From Alphaproteobacteria bacterium (GTDB taxonomy: Bacteria > Pseudomonadota > Alphaproteobacteria > UBA2966), in assembly GCA_021296255.1 (NCBI GenBank), contig JAGWAU010000003.1:1-64000 (forward strand): a stretch of 64,000 nt of DNA. Direction: 5' to 3'. Positions 7,248-46,371 of this stretch are shown here, in pieces. The position numbers were made by a program, and so were the translations under genes. Under the pieces are notes generated by a model that saw nothing but the letters and a program-made list of their open reading frames with translations, had not been told where the DNA came from and ran no database searches. The number at the start of each line of letters is the position of its first letter. The stretch's first letter is position 1.

Positions 7248-8555
7248 ATGGCGTTCCGCACGCTCCTGACGGCCCTGCTTTTGCTCCCTTCTCTCGCCAC
7301 GGCGGGGGATTTCTTCACGCTCAAAGGCCACGGCGGTCCGATAAAGGGCATCGATGTCTCGCCGGACGGCAGCCGCATCCTGACGGCGAGTTTCGACTAT
7401 TCCGTGGGGCTCTGGCAGGGCGGTACCCCGGTCTGGCTCGAGGCGCATCGCGCAGCGGCCAACACCGTCCGCTTCGTCGATTCCGAGCACGCGGTCTCGG
7501 CGGGCGATGACTATGACATCTACCTCTGGGACCTGAACACGGGTACGGGCCGGCGTCTCGGCGGCCACGAGGGCAAGATCATCGCCCTGGCGCTGTCGCC
7601 CGACCGACGTACCGTCGCGTCCGCGAGCTGGGACCGCACGATCGGTCTCTGGTCCCTCGCCGGCGCGCCAGCGCGTTTCCTGAAGGGTCACACAGGTGGC
7701 GTCAGCGACGTGGTGTTCTCCGCCGACGGCGCCAGACTCTATTCCGCCTCGGCGGACGGCACGATCCGGGTCTGGGACGTGTCGAGCGGCGCGCAGACGC
7801 GGCTTCTTCTGAAGGGCTGGTTCGGCGTCAATACGCTCATTCTGAACGAAGCCGCGGGATGGCTGGCCTACGGGGGGGTGGACGGCACGATCCGGGTCCT
7901 GGAGGTCGAGAGCGGCGACTTGATCGCCGACTTCACCGGCGAGCGCAGTCCCATTCTCGCCATGGCGGCCGACCGGGAGTTCACGACCCTGGCGATTGGT
8001 GACGGCTATGGGTTCATCAAGGTCATCGACAGCGCGAAGTGGGTAGTCACCGAGGACTTTCGCGCGACCCTGCACGGTCCCGTCTGGGCGCTTCGCTTCT
8101 CCGCCGACGGGCGGAACATACACGCGGGCAGCCTCGACGATGCCATGTACAGTTGGCCCGTGGCGTCGCTCGGCGAGCACGAGCGCATGACGAGGGGCGA
8201 ACTGTCGTTTCTCAAGGACCCGGCGGAGATGAGCAATGGAGAACGCCAGTTCCAACGCAAATGCTCGATCTGCCACGCGCTGGATCCCGACGGACGCCGG
8301 CGCGCCGGTCCCACGCTCTTCGGGATATTCGGACGCCCCGCGGGAAGCTTGGTGAACTACAGCTATTCGCCGACGCTTCGGAATTCCGATATCATCTGGG
8401 ACGTCGGCACGATCGACGCGCTGTTCGATCTTGGTCCGGACGACTTCATTCCCGGCTCTAAGATGCCCATGCAGCGGATCACCAAGGCCGCCGACAGGGA
8501 GGACCTGATCGCGTTCCTGAGGCGCGCGACGGCGGCATCGGGAGGCAATCGATGA
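7248..8555 (+). CDS. secreted WD40 beta-propeller fused to cytochrome c
   Basis: The 435-residue product has a signal peptide (LLTALLLLPSLATA, cleavage near residue 19). Seven WD-type repeats follow, with strand ends near LWQG (55), LWDLNTG (93), LWSLAG (134), VWDVSSG (175), VLEVESG (217), VIDSAK (259) and SWPVASLG (302). A C-terminal class I cytochrome c domain has CSICH at 339-343 and KMPM with Met406 or Met408 as likely axial ligand. It begins one base after the gamma-subunit stop, so it is in the FDH operon. A periplasmic electron-transfer or docking role for the dehydrogenase is plausible inference. Family members in FDH loci have no settled function that I know of. Confidence 0.88.
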   Translation: MAFRTLLTALLLLPSLATAGDFFTLKGHGGPIKGIDVSPDGSRILTASFDYSVGLWQGGTPVWLEAHRAAANTVRFVDSEHAVSAGDDYDIYLWDLNTGTGRRLGGHEGKIIALALSPDRRTVASASWDRTIGLWSLAGAPARFLKGHTGGVSDVVFSADGARLYSASADGTIRVWDVSSGAQTRLLLKGWFGVNTLILNEAAGWLAYGGVDGTIRVLEVESGDLIADFTGERSPILAMAADREFTTLAIGDGYGFIKVIDSAKWVVTEDFRATLHGPVWALRFSADGRNIHAGSLDDAMYSWPVASLGEHERMTRGELSFLKDPAEMSNGERQFQRKCSICHALDPDGRRRAGPTLFGIFGRPAGSLVNYSYSPTLRNSDIIWDVGTIDALFDLGPDDFIPGSKMPMQRITKAADREDLIAFLRRATAASGGNR

Positions 8556-32200: not shown

Positions 32201-33022
32201 TCACGCGCCGCCGCGGCGCTCCTCGACTCCAGAGTCCCGCGGACGCGTGGTCAGGATATTACCCCCGTCGACCACCAGGGTCTGGCCCGTCATGTAGCGG
32301 GCCCAGTCGGAGCAGAGATAGACGACGGCGTGGCCGATGTCCCAGCCTTCACCCTCGATCTTCAGCAACGAAGACCGGCGCCGGACCTCGCGCAGTTCGG
32401 CGTCCACGCCGTCGGTGACGACCATGGGCGTGTACATCGCCCCCGGTGCGATACAATTCACCCGGATGCCGTCAGCACCGTGGTCCACGGCCATGCCGCG
32501 CGTCAGCGCGATAACCGCTCCCTTCGACGTCGAATAGGCGGTGAGGCCACGCGGGCGCAGGGCGGAGATCGACGAGATGTTGACGATGGCGCCACCGCCG
32601 CTTTCCGTCATTGCGGGGATGGCGTACTTCGAGGTCAGGAACATGGCCTCAACATTGATCCGCATCATGCGGGCCCACCGTTCCCGGGTCTCGTCCACGA
32701 CCGTGGCCCGGCCGGCGATGCCGACGTTGTTGTCAAGGGCGTCGACCCGGCCGAACGTATCGACCGCTGCCGCGACCATCGCCGCGCACTGGGCCTCGTC
32801 CGTGAGGTCCGCCTCGTGAGCCACAGCGACGCCGCCCTCGGCTTCGATCATCTCGACGGTGCGACGGGCCAGCGCCAGGTCTCGGTCGACGACGAACACG
32901 CGCGCTCCGGCCCGGGCGAACAGGATCGCCGCCGCCCGGCCGTTGCCGATGCCGTCACCGGCCGCGCCGCCGCCGGCGACGATGGCGCATTTCCCTTCCA
33001 GGCCCAGACTTTCCTGCAGCAC
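32201..33022 (-). CDS. short-chain dehydrogenase, second copy of a tandem pair
   Basis: This 273-residue SDR has an atypical nucleotide-binding loop AGGGAAGDGIGNGR (16-29), longer than the usual TGxxxGxG, and DNNVGIAG in place of NNAG. Ser150-152, Tyr163 and Lys167 (YSTSK) form the catalytic set. GTG 33022 has AGGAGAGG at suitable distance. The C-terminal tail (TTRPRDSGVEERRGGA) is shared with its neighbour at 33038, which lies 15 bases upstream on the same strand; the two are recent-looking tandem paralogues. The substrate is unknown. Confidence 0.87.
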   Translation of the reverse strand: MLQESLGLEGKCAIVAGGGAAGDGIGNGRAAAILFARAGARVFVVDRDLALARRTVEMIEAEGGVAVAHEADLTDEAQCAAMVAAAVDTFGRVDALDNNVGIAGRATVVDETRERWARMMRINVEAMFLTSKYAIPAMTESGGGAIVNISSISALRPRGLTAYSTSKGAVIALTRGMAVDHGADGIRVNCIAPGAMYTPMVVTDGVDAELREVRRRSSLLKIEGEGWDIGHAVVYLCSDWARYMTGQTLVVDGGNILTTRPRDSGVEERRGGA

Positions 33023-33037
33023 GGTCGGCCTCTCCTG

Positions 33038-33874
33038 TTACGCCAGGGCCCCTCCGCGGCGCTCCTCGACCCCCGAGCCCCGTGGGCGCGTGGTCAGGTT
33101 CATGCCGCCGTCGACCACGAGGCACTGCCCCGTCACGTATCGCGCCCATTCCGAACAGAGATAGAGGACGGTGCGGCCGACGTCCCAGCCTTCTCCCTCG
33201 ATCCCCAACAGGGAGGCCTTGCGGCGACGCTCGCGCGCTTCGTCCGTCATGCCCCGGTGGAAAAGCCGTGGCGTATGTATAGCGCCCGGCAGGATGCAGT
33301 TGACTCGGATGCCGTCGGCGCCATGATCGACCGCCATGGCACGGGTGAGCGACATCATGGCGCCCTTCGACGTGGAATAGGCCGTCATGCCGCGCGGCCG
33401 GATGGCAGCCGTCGAGGCGATGTTGACGATGGCGCCGCCGTCGCCGCTCTCAATCATCGCCGGGACGGCGTATTTCGAGGCCAGGAAAACGCTTTCGACG
33501 TTGACCCGCATGACCTGTTCCCAGGCTTCCCGGCCCTCCTCGACAACGCTGCCCTTGCTGCTGATGCCGACGTTGTTGTCGAGGACGTCGAGGCGGCCGA
33601 ACCGTTCCATCGCGGCGGCCACCATGCCTTGGCATTCATCTTCGTGACCGAGGTCGGCCTGGTGGGCGACCGCTTCGCCGCCCTCGGCCTCGATCATCCC
33701 GACCGTGTTCTCCGCCAGATCGAGGAAACGATCGACGACCAGCACGCGGGCGCCGGCCCGGGCGAGCATGATCGCCGCCGCGCGTCCGTTGCCGATACCA
33801 TCACCCGCCGCGCCGCCGCCGGTGACGATGGCGGCCTTGCCCTCCAATCCGAGACTCTCCTTCAAAATAATCAC
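33038..33874 (-). CDS. short-chain dehydrogenase, first copy of a tandem pair
   Basis: This 278-residue SDR is paralogous to the next gene, sharing SLGLEGK, GGGAAGDGIGNGRAAAI and AYSTSKGA, and the tail TTRPRGSGVEERRGGA. About two thirds of residues agree by eye. GTG 33874 is the longest start, but GGGGAG at 33875-33880 touches it, while TTG 33865 sits about nine bases after that site and gives MKESLGLEGK, matching the paralogue's N-terminus; the TTG start may be the true one. Both SDRs and the luciferase-like gene at 33917 are on one strand and may be co-transcribed. Confidence 0.87.
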   Translation of the reverse strand: MIILKESLGLEGKAAIVTGGGAAGDGIGNGRAAAIMLARAGARVLVVDRFLDLAENTVGMIEAEGGEAVAHQADLGHEDECQGMVAAAMERFGRLDVLDNNVGISSKGSVVEEGREAWEQVMRVNVESVFLASKYAVPAMIESGDGGAIVNIASTAAIRPRGMTAYSTSKGAMMSLTRAMAVDHGADGIRVNCILPGAIHTPRLFHRGMTDEARERRRKASLLGIEGEGWDVGRTVLYLCSEWARYVTGQCLVVDGGMNLTTRPRGSGVEERRGGALA

Positions 33875-34924: not shown

Positions 34925-35050
34925 GGACGTTTCACCGGGCACGGTGCTTGGGTTGCACTGCCGATTCTGCAGCGGATGTTTCGTCAATATGGTTGAATGG
35001 TGCGGCCAATGTTACCGGAATTGGCCCTCAGGGGCGGAAGGAGATGCGCG

Positions 35051-35432
35051 ATGGCCAGAGAGAACCCCCTCGATACGTCCATGCGGCACATCTTTGCGAC
35101 CGGTGGTCAGGAGTTTCTCCCTTACGAACGGGACGGCAAGAGCATCCCAGGCATGAGCTGGTTTCCGCTGAGCGCAGACGCCAAGCTCGGTCGCGGCGGA
35201 CGCTATCTCCTCAAGCTCGACCCGGGCACGGAGGGGCCTCTTCACCAGCACGGCGGCTACGATGAGTTCTTCGTTCTCGAAGGAAGCATTATCGATAGCG
35301 ACGGGATCCGGGATCCGGATCGGACCGGGCGACTACGTGATGTACGAACCGGGGACCACCCACTTCACCGATACGCCTGAAGGTTGCTTGGTGCTGGTCA
35401 CCAAGGTCGACAATAGCGAGTTGCTCGATTAA
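35051..35432 (+). pseudogene. cupin-domain protein, frameshifted by a 7-bp tandem duplication
   Basis: ATG 35051 follows GGAAGGAG (35036-35043). The first 85 codons encode a cupin half with PLHQHGGYDEFFVLEGS. The frame then slips at 35303-35316, where GGGATCC is repeated twice in tandem. As written, translation ends at 35380 in an unrelated tail (…TGDHPLHRYA). Removing one 7-bp unit restores IGPGDYVMYEPGTTHF and an ending at TAA 35430, giving a complete 124-residue single-domain cupin. This is therefore a recent disruption or, less likely, a sequence error. The lyase gene at 35482 follows by about 50 bases. Confidence 0.82.
35303..35316 (+). repeat. 7-bp tandem duplication GGGATCC x2
   Basis: Two adjacent copies, 35303-35309 and 35310-35316, followed by a related GGATCGG. 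One copy too many for the cupin reading frame. Confidence 0.85.
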
Positions 35433-35481
35433 GCCGAGACGCCGCAAGGGCCATCTCCAGGATACATGGGGGGAGAAAGTG

Positions 35482-36306
35482 ATGAGCGATACAAGCGTCT
35501 ACAAGTGTTTCCGGGCGCTTCACGAGCGGGATGGCATCTTCGTCATCCCCAATCCCTGGGATGCCGGCACGGCCCGCATCCTTGCTTCCATGGGGTTCGA
35601 GGCTCTGGCCACGACGAGCGCCGGACTGGCATTTTCCCTCGGAGTCAATGACGGCGCGGTGCCGCGGGAACAGACCCTCGCGAACTGCCGCGACATCGTC
35701 GAGGCGACCGATCTGCCCGTTTCCGCCGACCTGGAGAAGGGATTCGGCGACTCGCCGGAAAGTGCCGCCGAGACGGTTCGCGCGGCGGCCATGGCGGGGC
35801 TGGCCGGCTGCTCCATCGAAGACTTCACCAACCGCAACGACCGGCCGCTCTACGAGTTCGCGCTCGCCGTCGACAGGATCGAGGCCGCGGTGGAGGCCGC
35901 ACGAAGCCTTCCCCATGACTTCATCCTCACGGCGCGGTGCGAGAACTTTCTGCGGGGCAATCCCGATCTCTCCGACACCATTGCGCGATTACAGGCGTTC
36001 GAGCAGGCGGGAGCCGATGCGCTCTATGCGCCGGCGCTTCCCGATCTGGAGACCATTCGAACAGTCTGCACGTCGGTGGGACGGCCGGTCAACGCGTTGA
36101 TGGGAACGCCCGGTGCGACCTACAGCATCAGCGAACTCGCCGAGGCAGGCGTGCGTCGAGTCAGTATCGGCTCCGCGGCCTCCCGCGTGGCACTGGGCGC
36201 CCTCATGAAAGCAGCCCGGGAAATTCGCGAGGCGGGAACCTTCGACCTCATGACCGAGGGAGCTACCTTCGCGGAGCTGAGCGAGATCTTCACGGCATTC
36301 GAATAA
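35482..36306 (+). CDS. isocitrate lyase/PEP mutase-family lyase
   Basis: This 274-residue TIM-barrel enzyme belongs to the isocitrate lyase/PEP phosphonomutase superfamily. The N-terminal FVIPNPWDAGTARIL, the catalytic-loop segment PVSADLEKGFGDS and FILTARCENFL are typical of the oxaloacetate-decarboxylase/2-methylisocitrate-lyase-like subgroup. Such proteins cleave C-C or P-C bonds in small oxo acids with Mg2+. GGGGGGAGAAA (35467-35477) precedes ATG 35482; GTG 35479 is also in frame. A specific reaction cannot be assigned. It may have been co-transcribed with the cupin gene. Confidence 0.87.
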   Translation: MSDTSVYKCFRALHERDGIFVIPNPWDAGTARILASMGFEALATTSAGLAFSLGVNDGAVPREQTLANCRDIVEATDLPVSADLEKGFGDSPESAAETVRAAAMAGLAGCSIEDFTNRNDRPLYEFALAVDRIEAAVEAARSLPHDFILTARCENFLRGNPDLSDTIARLQAFEQAGADALYAPALPDLETIRTVCTSVGRPVNALMGTPGATYSISELAEAGVRRVSIGSAASRVALGALMKAAREIREAGTFDLMTEGATFAELSEIFTAFE

Positions 36307-41868: not shown

Positions 41869-44817
41869 TCAGCTCCGCAGCCTCTCGCCCGCGGGATCGT
41901 AAAACACCGGCTTCGTCACCGCTGCGCGCACGACGTCCTTCTTGACGCGGATCGAGACCGTCTGGCCTATCCGCGCGCGGCCGTCACGCAAGAGCGCGAG
42001 GGCCACGGACCGGCCTCGCGCCACACTCATGACGCAGGCCGAGACGAATCCCTCGCTCGCTTCCTTCCGCCCGTCGGGGGTGATGGGGCTTCCCTCGGGC
42101 ACGATCTCGTGCGGGTCTGCGGTCAGCAGGCCCACGAGCTCGCGGCGCGGCCCGCCGCTGGCGCGGCGGATCTCAAGGGCGCGCTTGCCGATGAAGTCGG
42201 GTTTATTGCCGGAGACGATCCAGCCCAGCCCGAGGTCGTACGGGTCGGCCGTGCCGTCGACCTCATGACCCGGGGACAGGAAGCCCTTTTCGACGCGCAG
42301 CAGGTGGTTGGCTTCCGATCCGATGGGGGTGATGCTGAACGCCTGTCCCGCTTCGATCAAAGACTCCCATAGCTGGAGCCCACCGCCAGCGGGGACGTTG
42401 ATCTCGAAACTGAGTTCGCCGGTGTAGCTCACCCGGAACATGCGTGCCGGGAGGTTGGCGACCCGGCCCACGCGCATGCTCATGAAGGGGAAGTCATCGC
42501 CGTCCAGGTCAATATCGGTGCCGACCGTCCGCATGAATTCGCGGGCCGTCGGTCCGCAGACGGTGGCGTTGGCCCAGTGCTCGGTGACGGGCGTGACCGC
42601 CACCCGCCAGTCGGGCCTGTCGGTCTGGAGAAGCCCCTCCAGCATCCGGTAGACCATGTCGGCGTTGGCGGTCGACGTCGTCATGAGATAGTGGTCATCG
42701 GCCAGCTTGAACGTGACGCCGTCGTCCAGGATCAGACCGTCGTCGCTCAGCATGATCCCGTAACGACCCCGGTCCGGTCCGAGATCGTCCCAGTCGTTGG
42801 TGTAGACGAAGTCGAGGAGTTTCACCGCGTCCGGGCCGCGGATGTCGAACTTTCCGAGGGGCGAACCGTCATATATGCCCAGACCGTTGCGGACCGCGGC
42901 TGCCTCGCGGGTTACGGCCTGCTCCATGGTTTCCCCGGCCCGGGGGTAGAATCCGGGACGCCGCCAGCGGGCTCCCGCCTCGTACATCACCGCGCCCCGT
43001 TCCTTGTGCCAGCGGGTCATGGGCGTGTGCCGGTAGGGCAGGAGCAGCGATCCCGGCCGATGCCCGGCGACGGCGCCGAACTCGACGGGTACGTACGGCG
43101 GCCGGAAGGTCGTGGTTCCGACGGCGCCCGGGTCGTCCCCGTTCAGCGCGGCGAGCAGCCCGATGGCGTTGACGTTGCCTGTCTTGCCCTGATCGACGCC
43201 CATGCCGGCCGTGGTATAGCGCTTGGCGTGTTCGACAGCGCCGAAGCCCTCGCGCACGGCCAACTCCAGATCGGATACGGTGACGTCGTTCTGGATGTCG
43301 ACGAAGGCCTTCTTTACCGATCCGAAGGACTCGACGCCCCAGTATGCCTCGATTCGATAGGCTGGGTCCGATACCACCGGCAGGTCCGTGGCGGCGGGCG
43401 CGAAGCCGCAGCGCTCCGCCGCGGCGTGGCCGGCGTCACGGCCTTCCGCCAGGCAGCTGCCGAGACCGAAGGCGCCGTTGGCGCTGCCCGCGGGAATGGT
43501 GCCCTGGCGCGCCTCGCCGGGCACGAAGGCCGCCAAGTTCGGGTCGTAGCGCAGTCTACCCCGTGACTGGGAATAGAGATGAACGGTCGGGTTCCAGCCG
43601 CCGGAGGTACACAGGAGATCGCAGTCGATTGTCGTTTTCCGACCGTCTCCGCGGGAGGCGATTCGCACCGCCCTGAGGTGCCTCCCGCCCAGGGCCTCCT
43701 GCACGACCGCCCCGGTGTGCACGACGATCCCGGCGGAGCTGGCGCGCTTCAGGAGCGAGGCGGGGATTTGCGGGCGCACGTCCACGAGTCCGCGTACCGC
43801 GATCCCGGCGGCGTGCAGATCGAACGCCGCGTGCCAGGCGCTGTCGTTGTTCGTGAACACGACCGTGCTCTTGCCCGGGCGCACGGCGTAACGGTTCACG
43901 TAGCAGCATGCCGCCGACGCCAGCATGACTCCGGGCCGGTCGTTGTTCGCGAACACCATGGGGCGCTCGATGGCGCCCGTGGCGATCACGACCTGCCGGG
44001 CACGGACCCGCCAGGTACGCTGAAAGACGTGTGCCGGGCACGGGCCGCGCTCGGTTACCATGACGAAGTTGTGCTCATGGTGGGCCCACGCCGTCGCATC
44101 GCTTAAACAGCGCACGGTGCCCGTCGCTTCGAGGGCCGCAGCGATATCCTTCAACCAGTCGGACGCCGGGCGGCCGTCGACGAGATCCCCGTCGGCATGA
44201 AGGCGGCCGCCGATCGCGGTATCGTCGTCGACCAGCAGAACGCGCGCGCCGCTCCGTCCGGCGGCCAGAGCCGCCATCAGGCCCGCCGGTCCCGCCCCGA
44301 TCACCAGTACGTCGCAGTGATGGAAACGCGTCTCATAGCGGAGATGATCCGGTTCGGACGTGGGCGCGCGGCCCAGGCCGGCGGCGCGGCGGATGGCCGG
44401 CTCGAACAGATGCCAGTTCGGCCACATGAAGGTCTTGTAGTAGAAGCCGGCAGGCAGGAGCCGCGAGAAGACCTGGGCGATGGCGCCCACGTCGAAGTCG
44501 GGCGAGGGCCAGCAGTTGACGCTCGATGCCGCGAGGCCGGCGGAGAGAGGGACCCTGGTGACCGGCCAGTTCGTCGCGTCTTCGCCGCCGGAGAGTTGGA
44601 CGAGTGTGGCCGGCTCCTCGTACCCTGCGCCCTGAATGCCGCGCGGCCGGTGATATTTGAAACTTCGCCCCGTCAGGCTAATCCCGTTGGCCAACAGGGC
44701 CGACGCCAGGGTGTCGCCCCGGTATCCGGTATACGTCCGGCCGTTGAAGGTGAACCGAAGGGGGCTGTCACGGTCGATCAGCGCGTCGGGCGCCGAACCG
44801 CGATCAACGCGGCTCAT
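41869..44817 (-). CDS. soxA: heterotetrameric sarcosine oxidase alpha subunit
   Basis: This 982-residue SoxA subunit holds the NAD site and the tetrahydrofolate site that captures formaldehyde from sarcosine. An N-terminal 2Fe-2S-like domain of the HCP/ferredoxin type shows TFNGRTYTGYRGDTLASALL; a dinucleotide-binding motif VLVIGAGPAGLMAALAAGRSG is near 170; the C-terminal half is a GCV_T-fold folate domain (FDIRGPDAVKLLDFVYTND onward). ATG 44817 follows GGTGAGG; ATG 44829 is in frame four codons upstream. It overlaps the soxD 3' end by 14 bases. The order B-D-A-G is the standard one. Confidence 0.93.
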   Translation of the reverse strand: MSRVDRGSAPDALIDRDSPLRFTFNGRTYTGYRGDTLASALLANGISLTGRSFKYHRPRGIQGAGYEEPATLVQLSGGEDATNWPVTRVPLSAGLAASSVNCWPSPDFDVGAIAQVFSRLLPAGFYYKTFMWPNWHLFEPAIRRAAGLGRAPTSEPDHLRYETRFHHCDVLVIGAGPAGLMAALAAGRSGARVLLVDDDTAIGGRLHADGDLVDGRPASDWLKDIAAALEATGTVRCLSDATAWAHHEHNFVMVTERGPCPAHVFQRTWRVRARQVVIATGAIERPMVFANNDRPGVMLASAACCYVNRYAVRPGKSTVVFTNNDSAWHAAFDLHAAGIAVRGLVDVRPQIPASLLKRASSAGIVVHTGAVVQEALGGRHLRAVRIASRGDGRKTTIDCDLLCTSGGWNPTVHLYSQSRGRLRYDPNLAAFVPGEARQGTIPAGSANGAFGLGSCLAEGRDAGHAAAERCGFAPAATDLPVVSDPAYRIEAYWGVESFGSVKKAFVDIQNDVTVSDLELAVREGFGAVEHAKRYTTAGMGVDQGKTGNVNAIGLLAALNGDDPGAVGTTTFRPPYVPVEFGAVAGHRPGSLLLPYRHTPMTRWHKERGAVMYEAGARWRRPGFYPRAGETMEQAVTREAAAVRNGLGIYDGSPLGKFDIRGPDAVKLLDFVYTNDWDDLGPDRGRYGIMLSDDGLILDDGVTFKLADDHYLMTTSTANADMVYRMLEGLLQTDRPDWRVAVTPVTEHWANATVCGPTAREFMRTVGTDIDLDGDDFPFMSMRVGRVANLPARMFRVSYTGELSFEINVPAGGGLQLWESLIEAGQAFSITPIGSEANHLLRVEKGFLSPGHEVDGTADPYDLGLGWIVSGNKPDFIGKRALEIRRASGGPRRELVGLLTADPHEIVPEGSPITPDGRKEASEGFVSACVMSVARGRSVALALLRDGRARIGQTVSIRVKKDVVRAAVTKPVFYDPAGERLRS

Positions 44818-45076
44818 GATCCTCACCATCGAAGAGCGGCCGGATGTCGTGTGTCAGCGTGTCGCGCTCAAGGAAGAACCAGAGACCACAGCCGCGCTGG
44901 TGCCACCATCGCTCCACCAGGGGTCCCGCCGGATTCGGAGAAACGGTGACGTAGTCGACCCAGGCCTCGTCGGACAGCGTTTCCGGCCGCGCCGGCCGCG
45001 CCTTTTCGTACGCGCCGCCGCAGAAGAACTCGCTCTCGTGCCGATCTCCGCACCAGGGACAGGGAATGGTCAGCAT
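44804..45076 (-). CDS. soxD: heterotetrameric sarcosine oxidase delta subunit
   Basis: This 90-residue SoxD subunit binds zinc through CPWC (6-9) and supports complex assembly. CPWCGDRHESEFFCGGAYEKA is the delta signature, split here as CPWCGDRHESEF and GGAYEKARPARP. ATG 45076 is chosen; the open frame back to 45358 shadows soxB. Spacing from soxB is about 40 bases and its stop overlaps soxA. Confidence 0.92.
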   Translation of the reverse strand: MLTIPCPWCGDRHESEFFCGGAYEKARPARPETLSDEAWVDYVTVSPNPAGPLVERWWHQRGCGLWFFLERDTLTHDIRPLFDGEDHEPR

Positions 45077-45117
45077 CGTCTTCTCATATCGAACTGCCGG
45101 GCTCGTCGGCCAGCGAT

Positions 45118-46371
45118 TCACCGCGTCGATGTCGTGCCGGACTCGAGGATGAACTCCAGGCGCTCGAAGCGCTTCAGTGAGAACGGCTCGATCAGGGGGT
45201 GCGGCCGGCCGGTGGCGATGAGGTGGGCGAGCGTCAGGCCGCCGACGGGCACCGCCTTGAAGCCGCCCCACCAGCCCGCGCTGACGAAGAGGCCAGGGAT
45301 ATCGGTGGCGGAGACGATCGGGCTGGCGTCGTGGGCGAAATCCAGGCACCCGCCCCATTGCCGTAACAGCTTCAGGCGCTTGAAGCTGGGGAAGAGATCG
45401 AGCATGGCTGCCGCGGCGTCTTCAAAAACCGCTTCCTTGATGCCGCGGCGGAAAGATTGCTGCGGATCGGTCTCGCCTCCGACGACCAGTTCGCCCTTGT
45501 CGGATTGGCTCAGATAGACGCCGATGTCCGGGCAGTTCACGACCACGTTGATGAGAGGCTTGACCGGCTCGGACACGAAGGCTGACAGGTTGTAGGACTT
45601 TAGCGGCAGGCGGAGCCCCGCCGTCTCCGTGATCGTGGTGGTATGGCCCGACACGGCAACTGCGACCTTGTTCGCCCGAATCGTCCCCCTTTCCGTCTCC
45701 ACGCCAGAGATCCCGCCGTGCGGCCCCCGCAGCAGGGATCTGACCGGCGTGTTCTGATGAAGCGCGACCCCGTAACTGTCGGCGGCGCGTGCCAGTCCCC
45801 AGGCAACCGCGTCGTGACGGGCGACGGCGGCATCCGGATGCACCATGGCGGCGATGATGGGCATCCGGGCATCCGGGCCGCCGCCGGTGAGTGGCGGAAT
45901 TCGGCGGCGGACTTCCGCGACGCTGATGCGCCTGTAGGTGGACCCGTGGATGTCCATTGCCAGCATGCGCCGCGTCAGGTCGCGCAGCCTCGGGTATGTC
46001 TGGACCACGTCGATCATGCCGCGCTGGCTGAACATGAGGTTGTAGTTCAGTTCCCGGCTCAGTCCCTTGTAGAGTTCGACCGACTTCGCGAAGAACGGGA
46101 TGCTCTCGTCGCGCAGGTAGTTGGACCGTATCGTAACGGTGTTGCGGGCGATGTTGCCGCCGCCGAGCCAGCCGCGGTCCAGCACTGCGACGTCGGTCAC
46201 GCCGTGATTGTGGGCGAGGTAGTAGGCCGCCGCCAGTCCGTGCCCTCCGGCCCCGACGATGACGACGTCATAGGCATCCCTGAGTGGCGGAGATCGCCAG
46301 ACCCGTTGCCAATTGCGATGGAAGCCGAGGGCATTGCGCGCCAATGAAAAGATCGAATACCGCTGTCTCAT
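45118..46371 (-). CDS. soxB: heterotetrameric sarcosine oxidase beta subunit
   Basis: This 417-residue SoxB subunit is the catalytic FAD/FMN subunit that oxidises sarcosine to glycine and a formaldehyde equivalent. The N-terminus YSIFSLARNALGFHRNW is typical of the family, followed by the FAD motif VVIVGAGGHGLAAAYYLA and TIRSNYLRDESIPFF. GWWGGFKAVPVGG near the C-terminus closes the flavin site. ATG 46371 starts the soxBDAG unit. It follows the ABC transporter ATPase gene by 78 AT-rich bases on the same strand, so a transporter-oxidase operon is likely. Confidence 0.94.
   Translation of the reverse strand: MRQRYSIFSLARNALGFHRNWQRVWRSPPLRDAYDVVIVGAGGHGLAAAYYLAHNHGVTDVAVLDRGWLGGGNIARNTVTIRSNYLRDESIPFFAKSVELYKGLSRELNYNLMFSQRGMIDVVQTYPRLRDLTRRMLAMDIHGSTYRRISVAEVRRRIPPLTGGGPDARMPIIAAMVHPDAAVARHDAVAWGLARAADSYGVALHQNTPVRSLLRGPHGGISGVETERGTIRANKVAVAVSGHTTTITETAGLRLPLKSYNLSAFVSEPVKPLINVVVNCPDIGVYLSQSDKGELVVGGETDPQQSFRRGIKEAVFEDAAAAMLDLFPSFKRLKLLRQWGGCLDFAHDASPIVSATDIPGLFVSAGWWGGFKAVPVGGLTLAHLIATGRPHPLIEPFSLKRFERLEFILESGTTSTR

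Follow-up and report, generated by a model that had tools for sequence, protein, structure and literature searches.

A 7-bp tandem duplication has probably inactivated a small cupin gene in an alphaproteobacterial draft genome

In an alphaproteobacterial draft genome, of which we analysed a stretch of 64,000 nucleotides (the window), a spontaneous tandem duplication of 7 bp has quite probably inactivated a small single-domain cupin gene (ChrR-cupin-like, Cupin_7). In the assembly the gene carries an excess of exactly 7 bases, the reading frame changes there and both halves of the gene are conserved; presumably the duplication is also present in the living population and the gene has lost its function. 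As far as can be told this is no new biological system: mutations of this type are ordinary, and the assembly may possibly have slipped. A real duplication would offer a clear view of an accessory gene at an early stage of its loss, or of a knock-out that can be reversed, and the three-base microhomology flanking the repeat makes the likely cause readable. The features referred to below are as follows.

35037–35042, forward strand: purine stretch resembling a Shine-Dalgarno sequence, immediately ahead of the ATG (by eye)
35051–35432, forward strand: disrupted cupin gene, whole extent (ATG at 35051, original stop at 35430–35432)
35051–35305, forward strand: N-terminal half, 85 codons read in frame 0, carrying metal-binding motif 1, HxH (Pfam Cupin_7 match and alignment)
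35302–35318, forward strand: perfect period-7 tandem with one 7-bp unit in excess (repeat scan, Markov controls, alignment of relatives)
35306–35380, forward strand: out-of-frame tail of the present product, with premature stop TGA at 35378–35380 (translation, codon usage)
35310–35432, forward strand: C-terminal half, shifted to frame +1, carrying motif 2, PGTTH (ORF list, half-gene search, alignment)
35479–36306, forward strand: intact PEP mutase/isocitrate lyase family gene, the downstream neighbour (ORF list, family match)

The cupin motifs HxH...E and G...PG..H bind metal, and here they do not share one frame, motif 1 being read in frame 0 and motif 2 in frame +1. The frame-0 product has 109 aa, ends at the stop at 35378–35380 and passes the Pfam Cupin_7 (PF12973) cut-off with 27.7 versus 27 bits; all five intact relatives scanned match Cupin_7, at 45.5–61.8 bits. 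The HxH motif is present in this product and the GD...PG-x-x-H stretch, which shares a frame with the first half in the placed relatives, is missing from it, so that the 109-aa protein lacks the C-terminal half-barrel. The conserved stretch that the initial annotation had placed downstream is there: IGPGDYVMYEPGTTHF is read in the +1 frame, which ends at the stop at 35432. A PDB sequence search gave no match at E≤0.1, and in NCBIfam neither the cupin half nor two relatives matched a family.

To compare the gene with its relatives, the two halves were used as separate queries against 385 genomes of the class. Counting the gene's own genome, the first half was matched in 17 of these at E≤1e-8 and the second half in 12 at E≤1e-3. 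The comparison set of 19 relatives consists of the 18 places outside the own genome found by the first-half search and the same-genus L003; L015 and seven weaker places (L008–L014, of which one lies in the own genome) were left out. Both halves lie in one ORF in 16 of the 19, while the second half found no match in L007, L027 and L029, which hence could not be placed. In all 16 placed relatives the junction spacing is zero, with a single codon serving both as the end of the first half and as the start of the second; the window has two separate junction codons (35303–35305 and 35310–35312), 7 nt apart. The excess is therefore exactly 7 nt, and the gene has exactly one unit too many. We infer the state before the duplication from this protein spacing, the closest homologue, L003, being only 51% identical. 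The doubled heptamer occurs in 4 of the 77 loci examined, all four of them copies of this same place, and in no locus from other genomes.

A codon-usage model trained on 2,193 codons from seven neighbouring genes prefers frame 0 to the left of the repeat (17.8 versus −38.4 and −68.3 in the other frames) and frame +1 to its right (11.7 versus −31.7 and −32.3), and a six-frame Viterbi path over 352 kb of the own genome sets the switch at 35313. Together with the 16 placed relatives, this upholds the one-unit excess behind the earlier proposal that removing one copy restores the cupin. A frame switch by itself is not unusual in this draft genome: across the 352 kb, the stop of the old frame lies more than 30 nt downstream in 21 of 79 same-strand direct switches. 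The window holds two same-strand switches with the old frame open for more than 30 nt, one in the cupin gene and the other a 35-nt overlap near 8518. Codon usage also marks mid-gene switches elsewhere in the draft (L046:1602, L047:10851, L050:4145 and L060:11977); no perfect tandem run of non-triplet period is listed within 100 bp of any of these, which may represent additional frameshifts or genes that overlap.

The repeat itself, CGGGATCCGGGATCCGG at 35302–35318, is a perfect period-7 tandem with 10 consecutive matches, laid out as CGG-GATC-CGG-GATC-CGG, in which a 7-base unit is repeated and CGG (3 bases) recurs at each edge. The doubling of GGGATCC at 35303–35316, reported in the initial annotation, was confirmed; the sequence there is GGGATCCGGGATCC, which occurs once in the 64-kb window and once in the whole own genome (4.25 Mb). 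Because the period-7 match spans 35302–35318, the register is arbitrary, and GGGATCC, CGGGATC and others are equivalent units. No other period-7 run in the window has at least nine matches. By chance, runs of at least 10 arise at a mean of 0.145 per second-order Markov copy of the window, with at least one in 28 of 200 copies; the run alone is weak evidence and unremarkable. What goes beyond chance is its position, where the two cupin halves change frame. A wider survey took in the window and 20 further stretches of the own genome (352,321 bases, including 8,365 N) and found 16 perfect tandem runs with a period of 4–15, a run of 10 or more and no less than one full period; nine of these have a period not divisible by 3. 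At 45859–45878, a perfect period-8 tandem with 12 matches, longer than the period-7 run in the cupin gene, sits in an intact 417-aa ORF of the sarcosine oxidase beta family on the minus strand; a tandem run alone therefore need not break a gene.

The CGG on both sides of GATC would permit a 7-base strand slip in replication, by which the unit would be copied twice, and slippage at CGG is the presumed cause of the duplication. The extra unit puts everything past codon 85–87 out of frame, brings in a premature stop 52 bases early and removes the second half-barrel with its histidine motif. A DNA hairpin at the repeat was considered as a cause and rejected as unexceptional (z −1.2, 27 of 200 shuffles as good).

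The age of the break was assessed by neutral simulation on the sequence of the cupin gene, in substitutions per site. The initial annotation had called the break very fresh on the grounds that the downstream part is intact; that argument is weak, given that this part stays free of stops in 86% of runs at 0.05 and in 60% even at 0.2 substitutions per site. When runs had jointly to be free of stops upstream and downstream, keep the conserved residues and keep a perfect repeat, 54% passed at 0.01, 28% at 0.02, 3.8% at 0.05 and 0.1% at 0.1. Of 21 conserved columns, defined by an identity of at least 85% among 17 relatives (the set without L007 and L027), the gene keeps 19, and the two departures (D for E, T for S) are common to its closest relative, L003. 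Since 19 of 21 columns and the perfect repeat are kept, a recent origin is likely, and on the assumption of neutral evolution after the break the age is at most about 0.05 substitutions per site; a very fresh break is possible.

It is unlikely, though with a chance that deserves to be taken seriously, that the extra unit arose as an error of sequencing or assembly and the organism itself carries an intact gene. The genome is a draft of 136 contigs with an estimated contamination of 4.22, and an intact gene would agree with the otherwise good conservation of the cupin gene and with its intact neighbours. However, the perfect repeat spans just 17 bp, and assemblers rarely invent perfect repeats that are, like this one, shorter than the usual reads or k-mers. 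Among the nine non-triplet tandem runs in the 352 kb, only that of the cupin gene lies within 100 bp of a listed switch (by eye); the other eight are away from listed frame switches, and the assembly therefore has no general habit of such breaks.

Other readings accept the extra unit and leave the gene some activity. A mixed population, in which two-unit and single-unit alleles coexist with slow reversible slippage between them, is very improbable: the doubled unit is absent from every relative among the 77 loci examined, and two units plus 3 bp, 17 bp in all, do not make the many-unit array of a contingency locus, whose repeats are usually far longer. Perfect units with a 3-bp microhomology can nevertheless in principle lose one unit, and precise loss of a 30-bp tandem duplication restored BP3410 of Bordetella pertussis (PMC8546581); short duplications in ssp1 of fission yeast are reversible (PMC13207564). 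That CGG-GATC-CGG acts as a reversible off-switch, with the 7-bp unit gained and lost by microhomology slippage and the cupin on in some cells, is a very long shot. We give hardly any credence to continued expression of the gene by ribosomal frameshifting or as two pieces, even though both frames are open across the repeat and a 56-aa ORF has an ATG at 35262. All 16 placed relatives use a single frame and none needs frameshifting, which would moreover put extra residues in a turn where 0 of 16 relatives has an insertion; no slippery signal was recognised by eye at the cupin gene, and the 56-aa ORF starts before the frame change, in sequence with a frame-0 coding signal.

The downstream surroundings of the gene are intact and comprise the PEP mutase/isocitrate lyase family gene, a SnoaL-like gene and a gamma-glutamyltransferase gene; the opposite strand upstream carries a luciferase-like oxidoreductase gene and two SDR genes. 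At 32201–33874 the minus strand has two SDR genes side by side (273 and 278 aa), which look alike and are perhaps an old tandem duplication. At 41869–46371, sarcosine oxidase alpha and beta family genes have between them a small 184-aa ORF with a CPWCG motif, putatively delta-subunit-like. Some neighbours of the relatives were scanned in seven genomes (G085, G176, G002, G048, G393, G308 and G275) and include no shared partner, and neither of the two same-genus genomes has a match to the downstream PEP mutase gene at E≤1e-20. Within the family a cupin match is found in three of seven genomes, own included, one of the three being weak; the gene is accessory and sporadically distributed. At the DNA level it matches one place only in its own genome. 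A backup paralogue was sought there and none is close, the one further match being weak (35%, C65). Plasmid records yielded no match and named genomes a single distant one; a promoter and terminator scan found nothing.

The gene resembles ChrR-cupin-like single-domain cupins (Cupin_7, PF12973) in that its halves align to relatives matching Cupin_7 and keep HxH and PG-x-x-H; unlike them, it is split over two frames. The loss of genes through short tandem duplications, sometimes reversible, has been described before, and the cupin gene is another instance: exactly one unit is in excess at the frame break, +7 nt against all 16 placed relatives. Duplications of 26–116 bp have been described in lrp (PMC6786866, accessible part), and tandem-repeat copy number is treated in Mycobacterium tuberculosis (PMC12817950, accessible part). 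In B. pertussis, the manganese exporter gene BP3410 is inactivated by a 30-bp tandem duplication, and the available portion of that report reports both function and reversal (PMC8546581), whereas the cupin gene is known from sequence alone. The duplication there is a multiple of three and the 7 bp in the cupin gene shift the frame, yet in both a gene that is otherwise whole carries a short perfect tandem duplication (PMC8546581). Microhomology-mediated tandem duplications, such as those in ssp1 of fission yeast, are described as reversible in the accessible text of a review (PMC13207564). Unlike ssp1, a eukaryotic gene whose duplications are described as reversible, the cupin gene is represented by one assembled allele, and its microhomology spans only 3 bp; the two are alike in a unit bounded by short microhomology, a premature stop and potential reversibility (PMC13207564).
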